Made by a program: the position numbers and the translations under genes. Shown one piece after another: positions 6,282 to 31,418 of a stretch of DNA of 34,962 bases (positions are counted from its first letter, which is position 1; each line of letters begins with the position of its first letter). Source of the stretch: Candidatus Poribacteria bacterium (GTDB lineage: Bacteria > Poribacteria > WGA-4E > GCA-2687025). The notes beneath the pieces are model-generated. The model did no database searches, had not been told where the DNA came from, and saw only the letters and a list, made by a program, of their open reading frames with translations. Where the stretch lies: NCBI GenBank assembly GCA_016866785.1, contig VGLH01000030.1, forward strand, positions 1 through 34,962, read 5' to 3'.

Positions 6282-9200
6282 TCAGAAGCCCGACCTGCCC
6301 AAGCCGCCTGCGGTGAACGTAGACGGAACGCCGATCGGCAGGCTCCTGAAGCCCCAGCTCTGCGTGATCCCGTCGTAGCCCGCGCCCATGGTGACCATCG
6401 GGTCGGCGATCAGATTGATCTGGTAGGTGAATTCCTTGCGAACGTTGCCGATGCTGCCGTAGCGCCTCCAGGTGATGTGGAGGTCCCAGTCGCGCAGGTT
6501 CCTGCGCAGCGTCAGGTTCTGCGAGAACGGATGGAGGTAGGCGACGCCCGACGAGCGCGCCAGCGAGTTCGTTCGCCATCCGGTCGGGTTGGCGATCCGG
6601 TCTCGGTCGTAGTCCCACTGAGTGTCGAGGGAGATCTCCAGCAGCGTGCTGGGTCGCCACGATCCGCCGATCAGGAACGACCGTCGCGCCGACGTGTAGT
6701 TGGTGTACTGGCTCCCCAGGTCGAGGTTCCACCCCTTCGTGTAGTTGCCGCCGCGATAGTGGAGCGCCGACGACAGCCCGATCAACGAGAAGGGGGCTCG
6801 CTGGATCGTGGACGTTGGCGAGTACGTGTTGGGATCGACCGTCGTCTGCAGCGTGCCATAGAGGTTCCCGCTGCTGAGGGGCGAGAAGTTCATCGTGCCG
6901 CTGATGAACTCCCACTTTCGGTCGCCGACCGCCGACCGGTCCGTGTAGTCCCGCGACGTTCGGACGCTCAGCGTCAGGGCGTTCACGACCTTGTTGGCGC
7001 GCGTCTTGATCTGGACGTTCGACGTGAGGCTGAGCCGGATGAGCTTCCGTTCGTAGAGGTACGTGCTGGAACCGAACGGATAGAGCTTGATCGTGTCCGG
7101 CGACGGGTTGTCGGGGTCTTCGTCGGCGTCATTCGCCGACGGGGCCCAGTCGAAGCCGGCTTCCGAGCGAACCTCGTGCCGGAGTCGATTGGCGCCGGGA
7201 ACCCAACCGATGTCCCACACGCGGAACAGCAGGTTGCTCAGGCTCGAACTCGCGCTGACCAGAGGACGGATGATGTTCGTGTTCCCCTTCTGGTCCTTCT
7301 GGTGCCAGACGGCTTGGGTGCTGCCCCTCAGCGACAGCACGAACTCGCGCGTCTGGGTCAGTTTGAGCTTGGACTGCTTCGAGACGTCGAGACCCAGATC
7401 GCCGGCTTGGAGGAACACGTCCTCGGTCTCGTCGGCGGACAGACCTCGCGCTTGGCGTATCGCCTGGATCCCCGGCGAGTAGCGGAACTCGTTCCGGTAC
7501 AGATTCGCTATGGTCCCGTCGAGCGAGAAGTTCGCGTCCGTCAGCGTTGGCACGGCGAGGAGAGGAAGCTTCCATCGGTCCACGCGTCGAGCGGCTTGCA
7601 TCAGCCGGTCGTTGATCCGCCGGAGTCCCCACAGCCGTTCGAGTTCAGATGACCACGACAAGGTCAGTTCCGGCAGGCGTTGGTTCGTGCCGCTGCTGTC
7701 CTCGCTGAGCTCGAACGTCTTGTCGACCGTCAGGCGACCGTCGACGGAGGTCGCTCCCTGCCCGGAGATGGAGCTGAACGTAACGACGCCGAACGTCTGG
7801 AGCTCGGCGCGGTCGGTTCCGTAGCTTCCGAAGTAGTTGCGGTTCCCGTACTGTACCTTGCCCCAGAACGTGACGCCGCGACGCTCGTAGCGCCCCGTCT
7901 TGTCCCACGGAGTTGGGACCTCCATCCGATGGCTAGCGGCTCCATCCCACTGCCTGCCGATCTTGAACGTTTCCTGCCGCCCGTAGGAGTAAATGTCTTT
8001 CGTGAACAGGTAGACCTCGCCGTTCATCGTGCGCCGACGCCCCGCCTGAACGACGTAGAGGGCTTCGGGCGCCTCGATGACCGAGCTCACCTCGCCCTTC
8101 TCCAAGCCGACCGAGGCTCGATAGACGTTCAGCGGCACGTCTCCGCGACCCGTGTACCCGATGTAGCCGCCGTCCTCGGCGCTCTCGGCGTTGCTGATCT
8201 CTCGCGCCAGTTGGGCGAAGTCGGGAGTGGGCTCCTTGTCGGCAAGCCGCAGCAGCAGGATGCCCTCGTCCACCGAGATGGCTTCGGTGGTCTCGCCGAC
8301 CTGCAGCTCCGTCAGGAGCCGTCGTTGGCTGTAGTCGAAGTCGTTGATCGGCGTGCGGATGGTCTGCGCGCCGGGAGGTCCCTGCGGAACCGGCTCGGAA
8401 CTGTCGCTGGCTGAGCCCGGCGTCTGGGCGGCGACTCCGACGCCTCTCCGCCTCTCCTTCTCGGAGTCGGTCCAGGCGGATTCAGGCACGTTTGAGCCGT
8501 ATCGCGAGAGCATCGCGGCGAAGTCCTCGCCGTTCCGGGCGGATCGCAGCAGGCGTTGCGCGAGGTCCGCCGTCTCCTGCTTCGATTCGTCGCTCGCCTG
8601 AATCGGCACGAACACCTGCTGCACCTGTTTCTCGACTGTGCCGTAGAGGTCCATCGTGTCAGAGACGCGGAAGATGTAGAAGCCGCTCTCCGTCGCCACG
8701 ACCGGACTGACCTGCCCGTACTCCAGCAAGAGCGCGACGGATTCCAGGTCTGGCGTCAAGGCGGCATCGCCGGGCACCAGGTATCCGAGGATCGAGAACC
8801 GCCCTCCCAAGCGCTCGAGATCCTCGCCCTTGGCGGCACCGGCCTGAATCTCATCGGCGCGTTGTCGCGCGCGCGTCACGTCGTCCTCGGCGCGCGGATG
8901 CGGGAGGAACAGACGTTGGACCAGAACCTGGTCGAAGTCGCCGGCGAGTCGGTCCCGTATCTCGCTGGCGCGGCGCTTCAGGGCGGTCTTTTCGTCGGTG
9001 GTCGCGTCCTCGGGGATGTCGAAACGGATCTCGCGCAGCTCGACATCGCGAATCTGGTACTTCGTCTCGGTTCCCTCGCCGGTTCCCCGCAGCGACGAGT
9101 AGTCGAACTGAACGGCGCTCCGCACGCGCTGACGGCGCGCCAACGGCACGTTGACGCTGAACCAGTTGCCCTGGAACGTGTCCGACCCCAGTTTCACGAT

Positions 9201-9932
9201 GACCGTGGACGGGCGCTTCTCGCGGATGCTGCGGCGATAAGCGGGAATGTAGAGGAGAGGCACGCCGCCGATCATGAAGACGACGTGCTTGGCGATGATC
9301 TCGTTGTCGAGATGGACGATGATCCGCGAGGCACGGAAGTAGGTGTGGGGGTACTTCAGCGAGCTCGTCGTCAGGCGCCCCCCATTGATGAGGGACTCCT
9401 TCTCGGACACCCGGAGGATTCGGTATCCCTGGTAGTACCAGGGCGAGCCGTACGCCGCGCCGCCGTGCGCGATCCCCTGCTTCGTGCGCAGGTTGAACAC
9501 GAGCTCGTCGGCGTAGGTCACCTCCTCATCGACCCGCAGCCGCACGTTGCCCTCGGCGCGTAGGACGTTCTCGTCGAAGTCCGCCCATGCGTTTTCCGAC
9601 TCGAGAACCATGTTCTCGAACCGGATGTACGCGCCGCCCTTGAGGTGGACGATATTATCTCGCCAGACGACCTGCTCCGCGCCCTCGACGTAGGCTTGGT
9701 CCTTGCGGAGCTCCATGGTTCTGCCGAGGACGCTCGCGTCCAACGCCTCCGCCGATTCGGGAGGCTGGGCTGGGGCATCCGCCGCGTCGGCGGGCGGCGG
9801 AGCCTCCTCAACCGGATCGGCGGCATCTGCTAGCCAAGGGACTGCCAACGCCAGCCAGGAAGCGAGCGCCAGTCGATACCATCGTCGCCAGCGACGCCTG
9901 CCTGGCACGTGCCCGGCTCCCACTGACTCCAT
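6282..9932 (-). CDS. LptD/OstA-like outer-membrane assembly protein with inserted parvulin-like domains
   Basis: The 1216-residue protein starts at ATG 9932 behind GGAGG. An Arg-rich N-terminus plus a hydrophobic stretch (about 20-35) ending ADA-AD is a signal peptide. Residues about 70-270 match the LptD periplasmic OstA jellyroll: repeated 'A-N-D-E' strands, LRAEGNVRLR, then VPLLYIPAYRRS. Residues about 640-1216 read as a beta-barrel with alternating aromatic strands and a terminal Phe after GLGRSG, the usual outer-membrane beta-signal. Between them lie three parvulin-like segments (about 334-428, 434-565, 570-633) with GED-F/L, G-QVSPVV and GEVSSV signatures. LptD inserts LPS into the outer membrane, and that role is inferred here. 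The insertion is atypical. I find no cysteine in the protein, so the LptD disulfides are absent. It lies between a surA-like gene and metH. Confidence 0.8.
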   Translation of the reverse strand: MESVGAGHVPGRRRWRRWYRLALASWLALAVPWLADAADPVEEAPPPADAADAPAQPPESAEALDASVLGRTMELRKDQAYVEGAEQVVWRDNIVHLKGGAYIRFENMVLESENAWADFDENVLRAEGNVRLRVDEEVTYADELVFNLRTKQGIAHGGAAYGSPWYYQGYRILRVSEKESLINGGRLTTSSLKYPHTYFRASRIIVHLDNEIIAKHVVFMIGGVPLLYIPAYRRSIREKRPSTVIVKLGSDTFQGNWFSVNVPLARRQRVRSAVQFDYSSLRGTGEGTETKYQIRDVELREIRFDIPEDATTDEKTALKRRASEIRDRLAGDFDQVLVQRLFLPHPRAEDDVTRARQRADEIQAGAAKGEDLERLGGRFSILGYLVPGDAALTPDLESVALLLEYGQVSPVVATESGFYIFRVSDTMDLYGTVEKQVQQVFVPIQASDESKQETADLAQRLLRSARNGEDFAAMLSRYGSNVPESAWTDSEKERRRGVGVAAQTPGSASDSSEPVPQGPPGAQTIRTPINDFDYSQRRLLTELQVGETTEAISVDEGILLLRLADKEPTPDFAQLAREISNAESAEDGGYIGYTGRGDVPLNVYRASVGLEKGEVSSVIEAPEALYVVQAGRRRTMNGEVYLFTKDIYSYGRQETFKIGRQWDGAASHRMEVPTPWDKTGRYERRGVTFWGKVQYGNRNYFGSYGTDRAELQTFGVVTFSSISGQGATSVDGRLTVDKTFELSEDSSGTNQRLPELTLSWSSELERLWGLRRINDRLMQAARRVDRWKLPLLAVPTLTDANFSLDGTIANLYRNEFRYSPGIQAIRQARGLSADETEDVFLQAGDLGLDVSKQSKLKLTQTREFVLSLRGSTQAVWHQKDQKGNTNIIRPLVSASSSLSNLLFRVWDIGWVPGANRLRHEVRSEAGFDWAPSANDADEDPDNPSPDTIKLYPFGSSTYLYERKLIRLSLTSNVQIKTRANKVVNALTLSVRTSRDYTDRSAVGDRKWEFISGTMNFSPLSSGNLYGTLQTTVDPNTYSPTSTIQRAPFSLIGLSSALHYRGGNYTKGWNLDLGSQYTNYTSARRSFLIGGSWRPSTLLEISLDTQWDYDRDRIANPTGWRTNSLARSSGVAYLHPFSQNLTLRRNLRDWDLHITWRRYGSIGNVRKEFTYQINLIADPMVTMGAGYDGITQSWGFRSLPIGVPSTFTAGGLGRSGF
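8034..8933 (-). other. Parvulin-like insert inside the LptD-like protein
   Basis: This covers residues about 334-633 of the LptD-like protein. Each unit follows the parvulin order: an opening strand, an A-rich helix, a GEDL/GEDF turn, a G-x-[IL]GY segment, then hydrophobic 'L-G-[VE]-S' and a closing strand. The third unit starts at the helix and is incomplete. The histidines usually found in the opening (RHIL) and closing (GYHI) strands of active parvulins are replaced (VQRLF, GFYIF, LYVVQ), which suggests a binding or chaperone role rather than catalysis. A low-complexity linker (about 493-527) sits inside unit 2. Confidence 0.65.
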
Positions 9933-9968: not shown

Positions 9969-10640
9969 CTAGAACGTCACGTGTATTTTGATGAACGCCT
10001 TGGCTCGGAGCGCCACGATGTACTTCTCGCGCTCCGCGGCGAACCGTGTCTCGCGCAAGGCGTCCAGTGCCGCATCCTTGGTCTCGTACTCGCCCGGATG
10101 TTCGGCGAAGTGGGCGACGGCTTCGGCGTCGGTGACGTGGATTTTCGGCACCACGTCGCGCTTGAGGAGCTCCTTGATGCGAAGGCTCTTGCGCATCTCG
10201 CGTTCGAACGACGCCTTGGAATAGCCCTGGGCAGCGAGGGAACGCTCGAACTCGGCGTCGTCTTTCAGGTTCTGATCCGCGCGAAACTGCCGTATCTCCT
10301 CTTCCAGCATGCGCGGGTTGATGGCGAGCTCAGGCTTCTCGCGTTCCTGTCGCTGGGCTTCCTGTTCGAGCACCGTGCTGGCGATCAGGTCGTCCAGCCG
10401 CTCGGACGCATGAGACTCCGCGATCTGCTTCGCCTCTTCGGGACTTCGTCGTTCGTAGACGCGCAACAACTGGATGTGCTCGTTGATGAGCCGGTTCAAG
10501 TCGCCTTGCGTCAGTACGTCCTGATTCACCGTGGCGACGATGCGGTCCACGATCTTCGCGAACCCCGCCTGTCCGGTCGCCGCGCCGAGGGCGACCAGAC
10601 AGACCGTGACGAGACCGCGCAGAGCGAGCGATGGTCTCAC
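9969..10640 (-). CDS. SurA-like periplasmic chaperone without a parvulin domain
   Basis: The 223-residue protein starts at GTG 10640, preceded by GGAGG at eight bases. Residues 1-25 form a signal peptide ending GQA-G. The mature part opens with the SurA N-domain signature (DRIVATVNQDVLTQGDL, residues 32-48), followed by the helical chaperone core (ERLDDLIASTVLEQEA, then long charged helices). The end (FAAEREKYIVALRAKAFIKI) resembles the C-terminal SurA helix that packs back on the N-domain. The one or two PPIase domains normally between them are missing, so the family's usual 400-plus residues shrink to about 200. It probably escorts outer-membrane proteins through the periplasm. The lptD-like gene starts 36 bases after its stop, and LptD is a classical SurA client. 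Confidence 0.82.
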   Translation of the reverse strand: MRPSLALRGLVTVCLVALGAATGQAGFAKIVDRIVATVNQDVLTQGDLNRLINEHIQLLRVYERRSPEEAKQIAESHASERLDDLIASTVLEQEAQRQEREKPELAINPRMLEEEIRQFRADQNLKDDAEFERSLAAQGYSKASFEREMRKSLRIKELLKRDVVPKIHVTDAEAVAHFAEHPGEYETKDAALDALRETRFAAEREKYIVALRAKAFIKIHVTF

Positions 10641-12618: not shown

Positions 12619-15600
12619 TCAAGCTACCGTCGTACCTGGGGCGGAAGCCCCCGAACCCAACTGACGCAGAGCGTCGAACAGTGTATCGAACAGGTCTCGA
12701 GGTTCCATCGATGCCGCCGGAACGATCAACCGAGACGGTGGCACGGGCCGCGCCCCGGGTCGGCTCCTCACGAGTTCGAGGACGCGAACGGGGTCGAGCG
12801 CCGCTCGCTTCTCGTCCACGACAAACTGGATCGCGTTGCCGCCTACGGCGATGGAGGTCACCCCCAGCCTGGCGGCGAGCGATCGCAGCAGCGCCACGTC
12901 GAGCAGCGTCGTCACCTGCGATGGTAGCGCGCCGAACCGGTCGACGATCTCCTCTTCGAGCGCCCGCCGGTCGGACCGATCGCGGATCGCTCCGATTCGC
13001 TTATAGAGCAGCAGCTTGGTCGCCTGATCCGGAACGAAGGCTTCCGGTATGAACGCCGATACGGGCAGCTTGATCTGGGTCTCGATCTCCTCCTCGACCG
13101 GCTCGCCGCGCCGCTGTGCGACGGCGTTCTCGAGGAGCTTGCAGTAGAGGTCGTATCCGACGGCGGCGATGTGACCGTGCTGCTGCGGACCCAGCAGGTT
13201 GCCGGCGCCGCGAATCTCCATGTCGCGCAGAGCGATCTTGAACCCGGAACCCAGGTCGGTGAACTCCTCGATGACTCGGAGCCTTTTCTGCGATTCCTCG
13301 GTCATCACGCGATCTTCGGGATAGAACAGGTAGCCGTACGCCCGCCGATCCGACCTGCCCACGCGACCCCGAAGCTGATAGAGCTGCGCCAGACCGAGGG
13401 CGTCGGCGCGGTTGATCAGGATCGTGTTGACGTTCGGAATGTCCAACCCAGATTCGATGATGGTCGTGCACACCAGCACGTCGAACTCGTGCCGGATGAA
13501 GCGCATCATCGCGGACTCGAGGATGGATTCGCTCATCTGCCCGTGCGCGACTTCGAACCGCGCCTCCGGGACGAGCTCGCGCAGACCGTTGGCAATACTC
13601 TCGATCGTCTCGACGCGGTTATGGACGAAGAATACCTGTCCGCCTCGCCCGACCTCGCGCACGATCGCCTGCCGGACCGTGTCGGGACGATACTCCATCA
13701 CGCTGGTCTCGATGGGAAGCCGGTTCTCCGGCGGCGTGTCGATGACGCTCAGGTCGCGCGCCCCGGCGACCGCCATGTGGAGCGTCCGGGGAATAGGCGT
13801 CGCGGTCATCGTCAGCACATCGACCTGCTTCCGCATCTGCTTGAGGCGTTCTTTGTGCTTGACGCCGAAGCGATGCTCCTCGTCGATGATGAGCAACCCC
13901 AAGTCGCGGAATCTGACGTCGGCCGACAACAGCCGGTGCGTCCCGACGACGACGTCGCAGGTGCCCTTGGCGAGCATTTCGAGAGTGTCGGAAATGTCTT
14001 TGGGGCTCGCGAACCGGCTGAGCAACCGTGCGCGAACCGGAAATTGCCGAAATCGCTCGACGCACGTCAGGTAGTGCTGCTGGGCGAGGACCGTGGTCGG
14101 CACGAGGATGGCGACCTGTTTCATGTCCATCACCGCTTTGAACGCCGCGCGGATCGCGACTTCGGTTTTTCCGTAGCCGACGTCGCCGCACAGGAGGCGA
14201 TCCATCGGGCGCGCTGTCTCCATGTCGCGCTTCACATCGACGATGGCGCGTTCCTGATCGGGAGTCTCATCGAACGGGAACGCTGCCTCGAACTCGGTCT
14301 GCCACGGCGTGTCCGGCTGGAACGCGTGACCCGCCGCCGTCTGACGCGCGGCATACAGAGCGATCAGCTCTTCCGCCAAGTCCTCCACCGACCGCTGCAC
14401 CTTCGACTTGAGCCGGGCCCAAGCGGAGCCGCCGAGCCGGTCGACGGAAGGTCCTTTGTCGCCTCCGCCGATGTACTTCTGGATCAGGTTGATGTTGTAC
14501 GTGGGCACGTAGAGCATGTCGCCGGCGGCGTACTGGAGCGCTAGGAAGTCGTGCTCGTCCGCGCCGACCTTCATGCGTCGGATGCCCTTGTAGCGCGCGA
14601 TGCCATGCGTCGTGTGCACGACGTGGTCGTCTTCCTGGAGATCGACCAGGTTGACGACTGGCTTGCCGTCGCGGAACCGGCTCTGACGGTGTCGCACAAC
14701 GCGCTGCCCGAAGATGTCCTCTTGCGCGGCGACGACGAGCCGCGCCGTCGGGGAGATGAAGCCGTCCGAGACCGTGCCGACATGTGTCGACACGTTGCCA
14801 CTCGCGACTCCGTGATCCTCGAGGACGTCGTGCATTTGGGCAGCAGCCTTCGCCGTCTCCGAGAAGACGGCGACGCGGTACCCGGCGGCGGACCATCGCG
14901 GGATGGCTTCGAGGAACCGCTGCAGGTTCCCCTTCTCCTCGACGAGCGGCGTCGCCGTGATCGTCGTATGGCGGGCAGAGCCTTCGGATGTCATCGAGAC
15001 AGACGCCTCTACCGTCCGTCGGGACCCGATACGTTCCCGAAACGCATCGGTGGAGACATATGCCTCGTGGCTGTCCATCCAGAGCCTTCCCTCGGCGCGC
15101 GCGTCGTCGGTGAGACGGGCTCCGTGCTCGAAGAAGCGCTCCATCTCGCGATCCATCCACTTGGGTTCGTCGAGATAGACGACGGCATCTTCGGAGAGCA
15201 TGTCGATAAGGGTCTCGCGGTTCGCGCTGAGGTACGGGTAGTAGAGCTCGACGTCCGCGAGCCCTCCCATTTCAAAGAGCTGTTCGGTCAACGTTTCGAT
15301 GTGAGCGCGAAGCGTGGTCGTGGGAGCCTCCGCGTAGCGGACGCTCGTTCGGAGCAGCCACTCCTGCCTCGCCGCATCGCTCATGATCCACTCGTGCGCG
15401 GGCGGGATCGAGGCGGATCGAGCCCCGGACATGGAGCGTTGCGACGCCTCGTCAAACTCCCGGATCGACTCGATTTCGTCCCCAAAGAACTCGATCCGCA
15501 GCGGACGGCGTGCCGTGAGCGGGTAGACGTCGAGGATGCCTCCGCGGTGGGCGAACTGCCCTTTGAGCTCGACCGTCTCCGTTCGGTGGTATCCCGCCTC

Positions 15601-16080
15601 GCCGAGTCTGCCGACGAACTCGGTCATGTCGCATAGGTCGCCGACGTGGATCGTCGTCATGAGCTCGTTGAAGGCGTCGCGTGCGGGAAGGAACTGAGAC
15701 ACCGCGTGGATGGACGAGACGATGGTTCCGCCGGTCGAGAGCATAGCGCGGGATTCGACGCGCTCGGATCGCAGGCTCTTGCGCGAATCCGCCGAGCCCT
15801 CTCCGAGCGTGTCCGGCAGCAGCGGGAAGAACCCGACGCGGTCCAGGTCGAACGCGTGCAGGTCGTGATAGACCTTGCGGGCTTCGGCTTGAGTCGGGAA
15901 GACAGCCAGCAACAGCGCGTCCGAAGGGAGGTCGCGGCGCATGCAAGCGAGAAGGAAGGCGTTCCCAGCGCCGTGGATTCCCGACACCTGCACCGGTTCG
16001 CGGGCACACGACTCCCGCAAGAGAGACGTGAACGACCGGTACGCATCGGTTGTCCGGAGCAGATCCGTCAGCGAGTTCAT
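12619..16080 (-). CDS. mfd: Transcription-repair coupling factor
   Basis: This 1153-residue ATP-dependent translocase removes RNA polymerase stalled at lesions and recruits UvrA. The N-terminal UvrB-homologous part spans about 1-350 (FPLLPD-LGEGSADS, GQFAHRGGILDVYPL at 174-188). An RNA polymerase-interacting CarD-like domain lies at about 478-560 (HTTHGIARYKGI). The helicase motor has Walker A GDVGYGKT at 632-639, DEEH at 733-736, the TATPIPRTLHMA motif, and the RecG/Mfd translocation motif region near QLRGRVGRS. The C-terminal TRCF domain is complete. ATG 16080 was chosen because the family N-terminus starts there. No Shine-Dalgarno site precedes it, but a TACAAT box sits nine bases upstream. 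It is the first gene of the mfd-ppiC-surA-lptD-metH run. Confidence 0.97.
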   Translation of the reverse strand: MNSLTDLLRTTDAYRSFTSLLRESCAREPVQVSGIHGAGNAFLLACMRRDLPSDALLLAVFPTQAEARKVYHDLHAFDLDRVGFFPLLPDTLGEGSADSRKSLRSERVESRAMLSTGGTIVSSIHAVSQFLPARDAFNELMTTIHVGDLCDMTEFVGRLGEAGYHRTETVELKGQFAHRGGILDVYPLTARRPLRIEFFGDEIESIREFDEASQRSMSGARSASIPPAHEWIMSDAARQEWLLRTSVRYAEAPTTTLRAHIETLTEQLFEMGGLADVELYYPYLSANRETLIDMLSEDAVVYLDEPKWMDREMERFFEHGARLTDDARAEGRLWMDSHEAYVSTDAFRERIGSRRTVEASVSMTSEGSARHTTITATPLVEEKGNLQRFLEAIPRWSAAGYRVAVFSETAKAAAQMHDVLEDHGVASGNVSTHVGTVSDGFISPTARLVVAAQEDIFGQRVVRHRQSRFRDGKPVVNLVDLQEDDHVVHTTHGIARYKGIRRMKVGADEHDFLALQYAAGDMLYVPTYNINLIQKYIGGGDKGPSVDRLGGSAWARLKSKVQRSVEDLAEELIALYAARQTAAGHAFQPDTPWQTEFEAAFPFDETPDQERAIVDVKRDMETARPMDRLLCGDVGYGKTEVAIRAAFKAVMDMKQVAILVPTTVLAQQHYLTCVERFRQFPVRARLLSRFASPKDISDTLEMLAKGTCDVVVGTHRLLSADVRFRDLGLLIIDEEHRFGVKHKERLKQMRKQVDVLTMTATPIPRTLHMAVAGARDLSVIDTPPENRLPIETSVMEYRPDTVRQAIVREVGRGGQVFFVHNRVETIESIANGLRELVPEARFEVAHGQMSESILESAMMRFIRHEFDVLVCTTIIESGLDIPNVNTILINRADALGLAQLYQLRGRVGRSDRRAYGYLFYPEDRVMTEESQKRLRVIEEFTDLGSGFKIALRDMEIRGAGNLLGPQQHGHIAAVGYDLYCKLLENAVAQRRGEPVEEEIETQIKLPVSAFIPEAFVPDQATKLLLYKRIGAIRDRSDRRALEEEIVDRFGALPSQVTTLLDVALLRSLAARLGVTSIAVGGNAIQFVVDEKRAALDPVRVLELVRSRPGARPVPPSRLIVPAASMEPRDLFDTLFDALRQLGSGASAPGTTVA

Positions 16081-16089
16081 GCCGTCACG

Positions 16090-16117
16090 ATTGTACCCGC
16101 AATCGGTGCTCAGGCAA
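16090..16117 (-). promoter_or_regulatory. Candidate sigma-70 promoter for the mfd operon
   Basis: On the minus strand TTGCCT (16117-16112) and TACAAT (16095-16090) are separated by 16 bases. They match the -35 and -10 consensus in 4 of 6 and 5 of 6 positions. Transcription would start about three bases before the mfd ATG at 16080, so the mRNA could be almost leaderless. That fits the absence of a Shine-Dalgarno site at this start. This is from inspection only. Confidence 0.42.
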
Positions 16118-16149
16118 GCGCAAGTGCTTCCTGCCGACACCCGAAAACG

Positions 16150-28109: not shown

Positions 28110-29085
28110 CCGATCAACCCGCCTCTTGGGACGTGCCGTCTGGACGAGGACGGCGCGCGTGCTCATCTGGACTAGCATGATGGGATGGATGGGTTTCGCG
28201 GCTCGTCCTTCCCTCGCCGCGTTTCAGGATGCCTTCGCAGGCGCTCGCTACCTCGGCATGGGCGGGGCGAGCGTCGCGGTCGTGGCGGACACGGACAGCA
28301 TGGCTCAGAATCCTGCGGGTCTCGCCGAGCTCGGGGCGGAAACCTCGCGACGGCAGGTCGGAGCCAGCTATGCCGGGCTCCATGTCGGTCTGAGCGATGA
28401 TACAGGGATCGGGCAGAACCACATCGCCTACGCCATGTCATCGCCGAAGCTGGGTGGGGCTGGTCTCGCATGGCGGAGGACTCAAGCGGGCAGGCTCTAC
28501 TCGGAGGACCGCGTCGGCGTCGGCGTGGCGCGGCGTGTCAGCGAGCGTCCGAGTGGACGCGTCCTCTCGGTCGGCGTGCAGGGCGATGTCTTGTTCTGGG
28601 ATGCCGCCCCGACGCTGACCTCCTCGGGCGCCGTTTTGGAAGACTTGAGCGGCGATCCGCGTTTCAGCCTGTCTGCGGGCGCGCTCTTCGCGTTGGCGCC
28701 GGGCGTCTCCATCGGTTTGGCGCTGCATCACATCAACCAGCCGAACATCGTCTCGGATCGGTCGGAAACCGACGAGCTCCAGCCTGTACAGACGACCTTT
28801 GGCATCGGCGCGCGCGGCGCGCGGTTCCTGTGGACGTTCGACATCGTCCTGGAGCTCCAGGATGTCGATGTCCGTACGGGTCTCGAATGGCTTGCCGACC
28901 AACAGCGCCTGGCGCTACGCGGCGGATTCCGGCTGGAGGGCTTAGGGCTGGGCACGAACCTGACGCTGGGCGTCGGGTATCGTGTCGCCCCGTCGACTCG
29001 TCTCGATTACGCCCTGTGGCTCCCCATCGGAACCGTGCAGAGCACGCTCGGCTCGCATCGCGTCAGCGCGACGTACGACTTCTAG
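28102..29085 (+). CDS. PorV/UPF0164-like outer-membrane protein
   Basis: The 327-residue protein has a signal peptide (about 18-40, ending SLAA-F). The mature N-terminus FQDAFAGARYLGMGGASVAVVADTDSMAQNPAG matches the PorV/UPF0164 and FadL-like group: the 'R-LGMGGA--A-ADD--A--NPA' hatch signature. Beta-barrel strands follow, and it ends RVSATYDF, an outer-membrane C-terminal aromatic signature. PorV in Bacteroidota shuttles type IX secretion cargo, but related proteins occur without that system, so a secretion role is only possible. The start ATG 28102 overlaps the copA stop and has no clear ribosome site. ATG 28078 inside copA is an alternative. The next gene starts eight bases after its stop. 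Confidence 0.8.
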   Translation: MRDRSTRLLGRAVWTRTARVLIWTSMMGWMGFAARPSLAAFQDAFAGARYLGMGGASVAVVADTDSMAQNPAGLAELGAETSRRQVGASYAGLHVGLSDDTGIGQNHIAYAMSSPKLGGAGLAWRRTQAGRLYSEDRVGVGVARRVSERPSGRVLSVGVQGDVLFWDAAPTLTSSGAVLEDLSGDPRFSLSAGALFALAPGVSIGLALHHINQPNIVSDRSETDELQPVQTTFGIGARGARFLWTFDIVLELQDVDVRTGLEWLADQQRLALRGGFRLEGLGLGTNLTLGVGYRVAPSTRLDYALWLPIGTVQSTLGSHRVSATYDF

Positions 29086-29093
29086 GAAGCCGC

Positions 29094-31418
29094 ATGCACG
29101 ACACGACGGCTCCATATGTCGGCTCTCAGTGGTACATCCGAATCGTCGTCTGCGCCCTGTTCGCTGCGATGGGCTCCATGGTGTCCGCCCAACTCGCCGA
29201 CCCCCTTGGAAACCCTCTGTTCTTCGGCAAGGGCACGCCCATCTATGGGATCGACGCTCGGTACGGTCTGCTGGAGGGGAGCTCGACGCTGTCGCGGAAC
29301 AAGCTCTTCCGCGAAAAGACGGGGAACCGGAACTACTTCGTGTTCGACATCCAGCGTCCGACGGTGCGTCACCAACTGACCGTCGGGAACTTCCCGGCGA
29401 AGCATTCCGCCTTCACGCTGAGCAAAGAGCTGTTCGACGCCGTGCGGTGGACAGTCACCGTGCCGCGCGCGCGAGGGTCGGCATCCGTGTTCCTTTCGCG
29501 GCTCACCAATCCGACGTTCGACAGCGCCGGGCGCCCCATCGAGGGCAAGGATATCGAGAGCCGCGCCGACTGGTTCATGGCTGGACTGCGCGCCGAGACG
29601 AACCTGGGGGCGCGTCCGATCCGCGTGGCGGACCTGGCGGAGGTGAACCTGCCCCTGCCACGGATCGGAATCAGCTACGTGAATCGGTTCTTCACGAGCT
29701 ACGACTTGGCGCGCGCCACGAACCCCTTCCGAGGAGTCGTGACAGCGTCGCCGCCGTCGGAGCTCCGCCTGCGCTTCCGCGATGGCTCACCGGACGACGG
29801 CGGCGGAGCCCGAGTCCATCGCGTGCAGGTCGTGATCGACGGCGACGTGCGTTACGACGTCAAGGGCGGCAGAGAGCTCCCTGGCATCTTGGAACCCGGG
29901 TCGCAGAGCCGTCGCTCGCTGGCAGGAGACGCTCGCGAGGCGAACGGAGACGCCGCGTTCGTCTACCGGTTCCCGCTGTTCAGTCCGCAGGACATCCGAT
30001 CCGTCGAGTTCCGTATCGACATCGCAAACGACTACGTGGTCGAGCTCTCTCGCGACGGGGCGACCTGGGAGCGCAAGCTCGACGCCGACGGGAACGTGCA
30101 GGACGGCGCGAACCGGCGCGTCCGTTCGTTCCATTACGGCGAACTGACCGACGAGACGACCTTCGGCGTGGATATCCAGACCACACTGGGGGGCTTCGCC
30201 ATCGAGAGCGAGCGGTCGTGGTACAGCCAGACGCTTCAATACCCTCTGTTCGACGCCGAGCGCCGACGCACGGTCGCGGACGCGTGGTACGTCGAGGTGA
30301 ACCGCCGGTTCGGACCCCTGTTCTGGTCGGGCGAATACACGACCATCGATCCGTTCTACAACGCCTCGTCGTTCATCGACGACAACGACAACGAGGACCC
30401 CTACCTCGACGCTCGCGAGCCCTCGGTGCCCTTCGCCGGCAGCGACCAGGACGACCGCGATCGCGACGGCGTGAAGGACTGGGACGACGACTTCCTGCTG
30501 TTCGAGGCGGACCCGCCGAAGTTTCTGCTCGGGCTGAGCCGCGAGTCGATGGACTTCAACAATAACGGCGTGCCGGACAACCTCGAAGACAACACGAAGC
30601 CCAACTACAGGCTCGACTACGACGAGGGCAGCCGGGGGTTCCACACATACGCCATCGTCGATCTGCCCATCGCCAAGGGTCTCGCCCTCATCCCCGGCTA
30701 TTACGAGAAATCGATGACGTCGAGCGGAACCTACGCCGTCGGGGCATATCAGATTCTCGCCTACGAGCCGACGCGCATCCCGGACTTCGGATTCGTCAAA
30801 GCCCGATACACGGTGCGCCGTTCCCGCGACGAAATCCCCGACGACGTCATCTTCCGAGGCAAGCTGGTCCGCGACGAGTTGGCACTAGGCGACTATCTCG
30901 GTAACATCGTCACGTTCATCGCGGACTACGACAACGTTCCGAAGCTCACGATCCGGTCCAAGTTCAAGTACGAGTTCAATACGCTCTTCGCGTCGCGCAC
31001 TCATGTCACGGACGCGCAGCTCATCAACCAGGTGCGCTACCAATGGCAAATGCGCGACGACATGGTGCTTTCACCGGCGTTCCGCAACGACCGGACGCTG
31101 GGCTTCGCGTCGCCGGCAGACCCCGCGATGGAGACGAGCGCGATCCGAAATGCGTACATGCTGACGCTGACGCATCAGGTCGCGCAGGAGCTCCAGCTTT
31201 CAGGCGGCGTTCAGTACCTCACGTGGCGCGACCTGGTCGTGTCGCGCAACGACTACAACCGGCGGGTGGGGTTCCTGGAGCTCGTGCTCCAGGGCAAGGC
31301 GTTCGGACAGGACATCGGGCTGATCACGACCGTGGATTTCGTGAACCAGGCGTTCCTGCAGCCCGTCGGCGGCAATCAGAGAGAGACGAACATCTCGGTC
31401 GGACTGTTCGTCCTCTGA
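29094..31418 (+). CDS. Predicted outer-membrane/cell-surface protein with Asp-rich calcium-type loop
   Basis: The 774-residue protein begins at ATG 29094 behind AGGA. A signal peptide (hydrophobic 16-30) is cut near SA-Q. The body is beta-rich with frequent aromatic and alternating strands, consistent with a large barrel. It has no recognisable plug or TonB box. Residues about 429-510 are strongly acidic and contain D-x-D-x-DGV-DWDDD and DFNNNGVPDNLEDN motifs, like thrombospondin type 3 calcium loops. The C-terminus ends ISVGLFVL, with Phe at third-last rather than last position. I cannot name a family. It is tightly linked (8 and 19 bases) to the PorV-like gene upstream and the large surface protein downstream. 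Confidence 0.78.
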   Translation: MHDTTAPYVGSQWYIRIVVCALFAAMGSMVSAQLADPLGNPLFFGKGTPIYGIDARYGLLEGSSTLSRNKLFREKTGNRNYFVFDIQRPTVRHQLTVGNFPAKHSAFTLSKELFDAVRWTVTVPRARGSASVFLSRLTNPTFDSAGRPIEGKDIESRADWFMAGLRAETNLGARPIRVADLAEVNLPLPRIGISYVNRFFTSYDLARATNPFRGVVTASPPSELRLRFRDGSPDDGGGARVHRVQVVIDGDVRYDVKGGRELPGILEPGSQSRRSLAGDAREANGDAAFVYRFPLFSPQDIRSVEFRIDIANDYVVELSRDGATWERKLDADGNVQDGANRRVRSFHYGELTDETTFGVDIQTTLGGFAIESERSWYSQTLQYPLFDAERRRTVADAWYVEVNRRFGPLFWSGEYTTIDPFYNASSFIDDNDNEDPYLDAREPSVPFAGSDQDDRDRDGVKDWDDDFLLFEADPPKFLLGLSRESMDFNNNGVPDNLEDNTKPNYRLDYDEGSRGFHTYAIVDLPIAKGLALIPGYYEKSMTSSGTYAVGAYQILAYEPTRIPDFGFVKARYTVRRSRDEIPDDVIFRGKLVRDELALGDYLGNIVTFIADYDNVPKLTIRSKFKYEFNTLFASRTHVTDAQLINQVRYQWQMRDDMVLSPAFRNDRTLGFASPADPAMETSAIRNAYMLTLTHQVAQELQLSGGVQYLTWRDLVVSRNDYNRRVGFLELVLQGKAFGQDIGLITTVDFVNQAFLQPVGGNQRETNISVGLFVL

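Follow-up and report, generated by a model that had tools for sequence, protein, structure and literature searches.

LptD is the outer-membrane barrel that inserts lipopolysaccharide (LPS) into the cell surface; it is a drug target and the most difficult client of BAM, and E. coli has just one other outer-membrane protein that is strictly essential. Can such a protein carry folding-factor domains within its own chain and, if so, where do they sit and what might they do? The question is raised by a gene in a 34,962-nucleotide stretch of DNA (the window) from a member of Candidatus Poribacteria, a candidate phylum known mostly from marine sponges; the source is a contig of a 291-contig metagenome bin (4.3 Mb, 95% complete). 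A first-pass annotation had read the gene product as an OstA-type N-domain, three parvulin-like units and an LptD-like barrel ending in Phe, in that order, and had called it a potentially undescribed LptD with a built-in assembly chaperone. The open reading frame is intact from its ATG start to a C-terminal ...GRSGF, and its parts and neighbours are collected in Table 1.

Table 1. Features of the fusion gene and its surroundings in the window (aa, residues of the fusion protein unless a length is given).
Feature	Position	Strand	Evidence or remark
lptD-parvulin fusion gene, 1216 aa	6282..9932	-	intact ORF; Foldseek best matches LptD, then SurA/PPIase
putative signal peptide, aa 1-38	9819..9932	-	from sequence: Arg-rich N-terminus and hydrophobic run, ADA-A site; GGAGG (RBS) just upstream
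N-terminal beta-jellyroll (beta-taco, OstA/LptD_N type), aa 76-240	9213..9707	-	AlphaFold strands; hhalign against canonical LptDs, E 4e-51
barrel strands beta1-beta4, aa 243-306	9015..9206	-	DSSP of model; aligns with start of canonical LptD barrel
parvulin unit 1, aa 335-432, beta4-beta5 periplasmic turn (inferred)	8637..8930	-	Pfam Rotamase E 3.3e-7 alone; model
parvulin unit 2, aa 433-568, includes low-complexity insertion	8229..8636	-	Pfam Rotamase_2 E 4.2e-6 alone; pLDDT <50 at model residues 462-477
parvulin unit 3, aa 569-637, truncated at its N-terminus	8022..8228	-	Pfam Rotamase E 2.1e-8; last strand continues into beta5
barrel strands beta5-beta26 and C-terminal tail with final Phe, aa 638-1216	6285..8021	-	22 strands in model
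helical beta10-beta11 turn, aa 764-799; extra parvulin here in other Poribacteria lineages	7536..7643	-	models; extra unit at L109 aa 750-879 and L127 aa 256-378
Ser190, site of N-domain disulfide cysteine	9363..9365	-	alignment
Asp1148, site of canonical C-terminal disulfide cysteine (beta24-beta25 turn)	6489..6491	-	alignment; LHCW in canonical relatives
surA, core domain alone, 223 aa, without parvulins	9969..10640	-	Pfam SurA_N_3 E 2.8e-13; no Rotamase
double PpiC-type protein, 643 aa	10677..12608	-	Rotamase_2 E 9.7e-33, two stretches; synteny
mfd (TRCF), conserved far end of cluster	12619..16140	-	Pfam, synteny

Several comparisons of sequence and predicted structure indicate that the fusion protein is the organism's LptD, passing LPS to the cell surface. 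We used an AlphaFold model of residues 38-1216, built from 71 alignment rows (pLDDT 79, pTM 0.57), as a query for Foldseek against the PDB, where more than 30 LptD structures rank first (best 8h1s, E 7e-20), followed by the PPIase 8hm4 (E 2e-6) and by SurA 1m5y (E 1e-4); known LptD structures are 8h1s, 4q35 and 5iv9. The OstA_2 match of the window protein is below the Pfam threshold (E 0.03), but the OstA-like N-domain of the first-pass annotation stands because in hhalign the Poribacteria profile aligns at E 4e-51 to LptDs from other phyla, the insert showing up as a gap, and this profile-profile match is decisive. The profile of those other-phyla LptDs (A3) itself matches LptD in the PDB at E 1.9e-32, and several of the proteins match Pfam LptD/LptD_N. 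Throughout the window genome PF04453 and PF19838 stay below threshold and no second LptD was found; the missing PF04453 match is a limit of that model. In sampled genomes of the window's class, several of them single-contig or closed, LptD_2 matches are confined to the fusion ORF. The LPS pathway is represented in the genome by LpxC, LptF, LptG and LptE, the last encoded by a separate gene. The protein thus combines an N-terminal LptA/OstA-type jellyroll with a 26-stranded barrel of LptD fold and is the sole LptD beside an LPS pathway and LptE. It resembles known LptDs in the order and fold of jellyroll and barrel, and differs from them in about 320 additional parvulin residues at beta4-beta5 and, in the window's class, in the loss of the disulfide cysteines.

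The insert does not lie where it had been placed. Strands were counted in the model with DSSP, and the count was anchored at Asp1148 in the beta24-beta25 turn, the periplasmic turn that carries the disulfide in E. coli LptD (PMC12644819). Four of the 26 strands (aa 245-305) come before the insert and 22 follow it, so the insert lies within the barrel, at the beta4-beta5 turn, and the strand count together with the profile alignment rules out a position between OstA domain and barrel. Odd-to-even connections in the model are mostly long and even-to-odd ones mostly short, the exceptions being the insert itself and the helical beta10-beta11 turn; by strand parity, we infer that the insert is on the periplasmic side. 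Read loosely, the hhalign gap would put it in an extracellular loop (canonical beta5-beta6), which is disfavoured by the count back from beta24-beta25 and by a continuous strand at aa 624-648, in which the last strand of unit 3 runs unbroken into barrel strand beta5. Two Poribacteria lineages that do not belong to the window's class, G083 (L109/L128) and G084 (L127/L148), have an additional parvulin within the barrel besides the cassette (aa 750-879 in L109, aa 256-378 in L127). In the model of L127, for which LptD is again the top Foldseek match, this further parvulin falls between beta10 and beta11, an even-to-odd connection and, by the same parity argument, a presumably periplasmic site as well. 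Periplasmic turns of the LptD barrel thus appear to accept whole domains. That this is an LptD with a parvulin cassette inside its barrel is, in our judgement, close to certain.

The three parvulin-like units seen in the first reading were borne out. Against Pfam the whole protein matches Rotamase (PPIC) at E 3.4e-19, and each segment matches when searched singly (aa 330-434 and 545-640 Rotamase, aa 432-572 Rotamase_2; E values in Table 1). Of the independent domain matches proposed at the outset as a check, Rotamase is found in all 19 aligned relatives (best 8e-55) and LptD_2 in four of them. The insert is present in 67/67 full-length rows, and the mean pairwise identity of unit 1 (0.59) is close to that of the barrel (0.61). 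Sequence and fold are those of a PPIC parvulin; the active-site His is not there. In almost every row, Gln or Arg stands in place of the first active-site His in unit 1, and Arg or Gln in unit 2; unit 3, in which the first strand and helix of a complete parvulin are missing, does not have the strand concerned. The window protein has lost the last-strand His too, and some relatives keep one active-site-like motif, such as VRHIL in unit 2 of L037. Given the absent first His, the units probably bind rather than isomerise. They share the Rotamase family with PPIC isomerases of the PrsA/NifM type and differ from these in lacking the active-site His and in their membrane-barrel context.

Is the architecture real, and how far does it extend? 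A profile search over 387 genomes, 85 of them Candidatus Poribacteria, found N-domain, insert and barrel in one open frame in 76 of the 85, including single-contig chromosomes with an intact fusion (G017, G025, G042, G044, G051 and G053); six of the others have the fusion split across contigs or frames and three showed no LptD. No Poribacteria LptD without the cassette was seen in these 85 genomes. The LptD-parvulin architecture, for which the first-pass annotation had proposed a search in related genomes, is phylum-wide in Poribacteria, and it constitutes a real new domain architecture within the known LptD family. Beyond the phylum, the fusion was not found in two partly overlapping samples of several hundred genomes; the profile there matches just the N-domain in ORFs the size of an LptD (660-863 aa) or just the parvulins in ORFs the size of SurA, and no parvulins were found in 15 N-domain-matching ORFs from other phyla. 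As separate observations, the fused lptD of genome G001 (L033 7862-11549) is present as two overlapping ORFs of 875 and 460 aa, through a frameshift or a sequencing error, and an LptD from another phylum (L143 67-3336, 1090 aa), one of those 15 ORFs, apparently has two OstA-type stretches before its barrel and is without a parvulin.

The neighbourhood points to a source for the cassette. The order mfd-ppiC-ppiC-surA-lptD is common to about 60 loci, with lptD directly downstream of surA. In the window's family both ppiC genes are fused into one, which are separate in other Poribacteria families, and in this family only surA has shrunk to about 225 aa without parvulins, where other families have a full SurA at the same place; a second SurA_N protein of 441 aa is encoded elsewhere in the window genome. 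The tandem parvulins of the insert are homologous to the two of SurA, the insert profile matching Poribacteria SurA to about 1e-45. Unlike SurA, the fusion protein has no SurA core domain (no SurA_N match in Pfam, hence no chain that joins core and parvulins), its units are embedded in an outer-membrane barrel and it has a third, shortened unit. Homology and adjacency make derivation of the insert from SurA likely. In a tree of tandem parvulins the inserts of G083 and G084 group with Poribacteria SurA and those of the main class form a separate clade, which is compatible with one or two acquisitions.

An interdomain disulfide is common in LptD and is not defining for family membership. Canonical LptDs of other phyla have TTC in the N-domain and a near-C-terminal LHCW in most of 14 aligned. 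In the window's class, 67 of the 68 rows with a residue at the site of the barrel Cys have Asp, Asn or Val there, and the N-domain Cys is kept in 61/69 rows as an orphan without barrel partner; in the window's family the latter is Ser, and the window protein contains no Cys at all, and thus has no disulfide between N-domain and beta24-beta25 turn. Both cysteine sites are kept in G083 and G084, in which the parvulins are present as well. Since lineages with both cassette and cysteines exist, the disulfide was lost after insertion and the cassette did not arise as its replacement; the cassette may instead have allowed its later loss. In E. coli, the disulfides of LptD control activation of the translocon (PMC10567701).

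The explanation that we favour overall, tentatively and with somewhat less than even confidence, is that a non-catalytic parvulin cassette in an LptD turn holds the protein's own strands during BAM assembly. The SurA-type parvulins would serve as binding modules tethered beside the barrel, where they would hold unfolded strands rich in aromatic residues, above all the strands of the slow-folding 26-strand barrel to which they belong, and the cassette would add to or partly replace SurA acting in trans; in the window's class it might also partly replace the disulfide-controlled maturation step. A tethered holding module without catalysis is preferred because the first His is absent, the PPIase-1 domain of E. 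coli SurA is inactive yet binds outer-membrane proteins (OMPs), and LptD is a slow client, demanding of chaperones (PMC13067283). Besides fold and homology, the conservation of the cassette, the second turn with a parvulin and the adjacency of surA and lptD count in favour of this explanation. On the other side, the cassette follows strand 4 and is thus made before the remaining 22 strands but after the first ones, SurA and separate PpiC proteins are still encoded, and G083 and G084 have both cysteines and parvulins. With a pTM of only 0.57, the packing of the parvulins against barrel or LptE is not readable from the model. A cis-chaperone role for the cassette is accordingly graded a shade lower, as a possible one, and client binding in cis by the parvulins is a guess. 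The fullest version, a self-assembling LPS translocon in which SurA-derived, non-catalytic parvulins in LptD turns chaperone the barrel in cis and later permitted loss of the disulfide checkpoint and, in the window's family, of the SurA parvulins, we consider doubtful.

Holding in cis is our first choice, with a docking function close behind, although on its own we think the latter somewhat unlikely. Here the parvulins of the mature translocon would bind the LptA bridge, LptE, BAM, the SurA core or peptidoglycan, and their task would be to help position or control the Lpt bridge, not to fold LptD. The insert persists in the finished protein, on what is presumably its periplasmic face; unit 3 joins beta5 rigidly, and the orphan N-domain Cys hints at an intermolecular contact. 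SurA parvulins normally sit on a core, and in the window's family they are gone from the SurA core encoded next door, such that the halves could reunite in trans. However, LptE is already encoded by its own gene, any partner for the cassette is still putative, and parvulins found near OMPs elsewhere are folding factors. We find it improbable that parvulin DNA from the adjacent surA or ppiC was merely copied into periplasmic turns of lptD and tolerated there with little function. The position of lptD directly downstream of these genes, the occurrence of parvulins in two different turns, the vanished catalytic residues and the low-complexity sequence in unit 2 would all fit such a history, but neither the presence of the insert in every full-length row, with unit 1 conserved to nearly the same degree as the barrel, nor the lack of any cassette-free LptD in the phylum does.

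The remaining alternatives fare worse. An active prolyl isomerase acting on periplasmic proteins would agree with the strong PPIC match (E 3e-19) and with the VRHIL motif in L037, but is very unlikely, the first active-site His being replaced or its strand absent and the last-strand His of the window protein being lost too. It is just as unlikely that the barrel is LptD-like and handles other cargo, with LPS exported by something else: the failure of PF04453 and PF19838 to reach threshold in this genome and the few LptD-bearing bacteria without LPS leave some room for this reading, against which stand LpxC, LptF/G and LptE and the confinement of LptD_2 to the fusion ORF in several relatives, closed chromosomes included. 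An assembly or annotation artefact joining a piece of surA to lptD, a chimera that the first-pass annotation had itself named as a possible undoing, might be feared in a bin of many contigs; the joined frame in 76 genomes, single-contig chromosomes among them, refutes it.

Searches of the open-licence PMC literature returned no description of an LptD with PPIase domains, or of a Poribacteria LptD, consistent with the first impression of an undescribed architecture. A natural, phylum-wide LptD with covalent folding-factor domains offers a ready test of what the SurA parvulins contribute to LptD, and a Poribacteria LptD without the disulfide checkpoint offers a natural test of whether the disulfides are needed.

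Two further ORFs in the window deserve mention. A 982-aa ORF (28470-31418, plus strand) has a sub-threshold match to an SlpA S-layer barrel domain (E 2e-7) and is possibly another large outer-membrane protein, and an ORF at 1627-2667, which adjoins metH, has a sub-threshold DAC (diadenylate cyclase) match.
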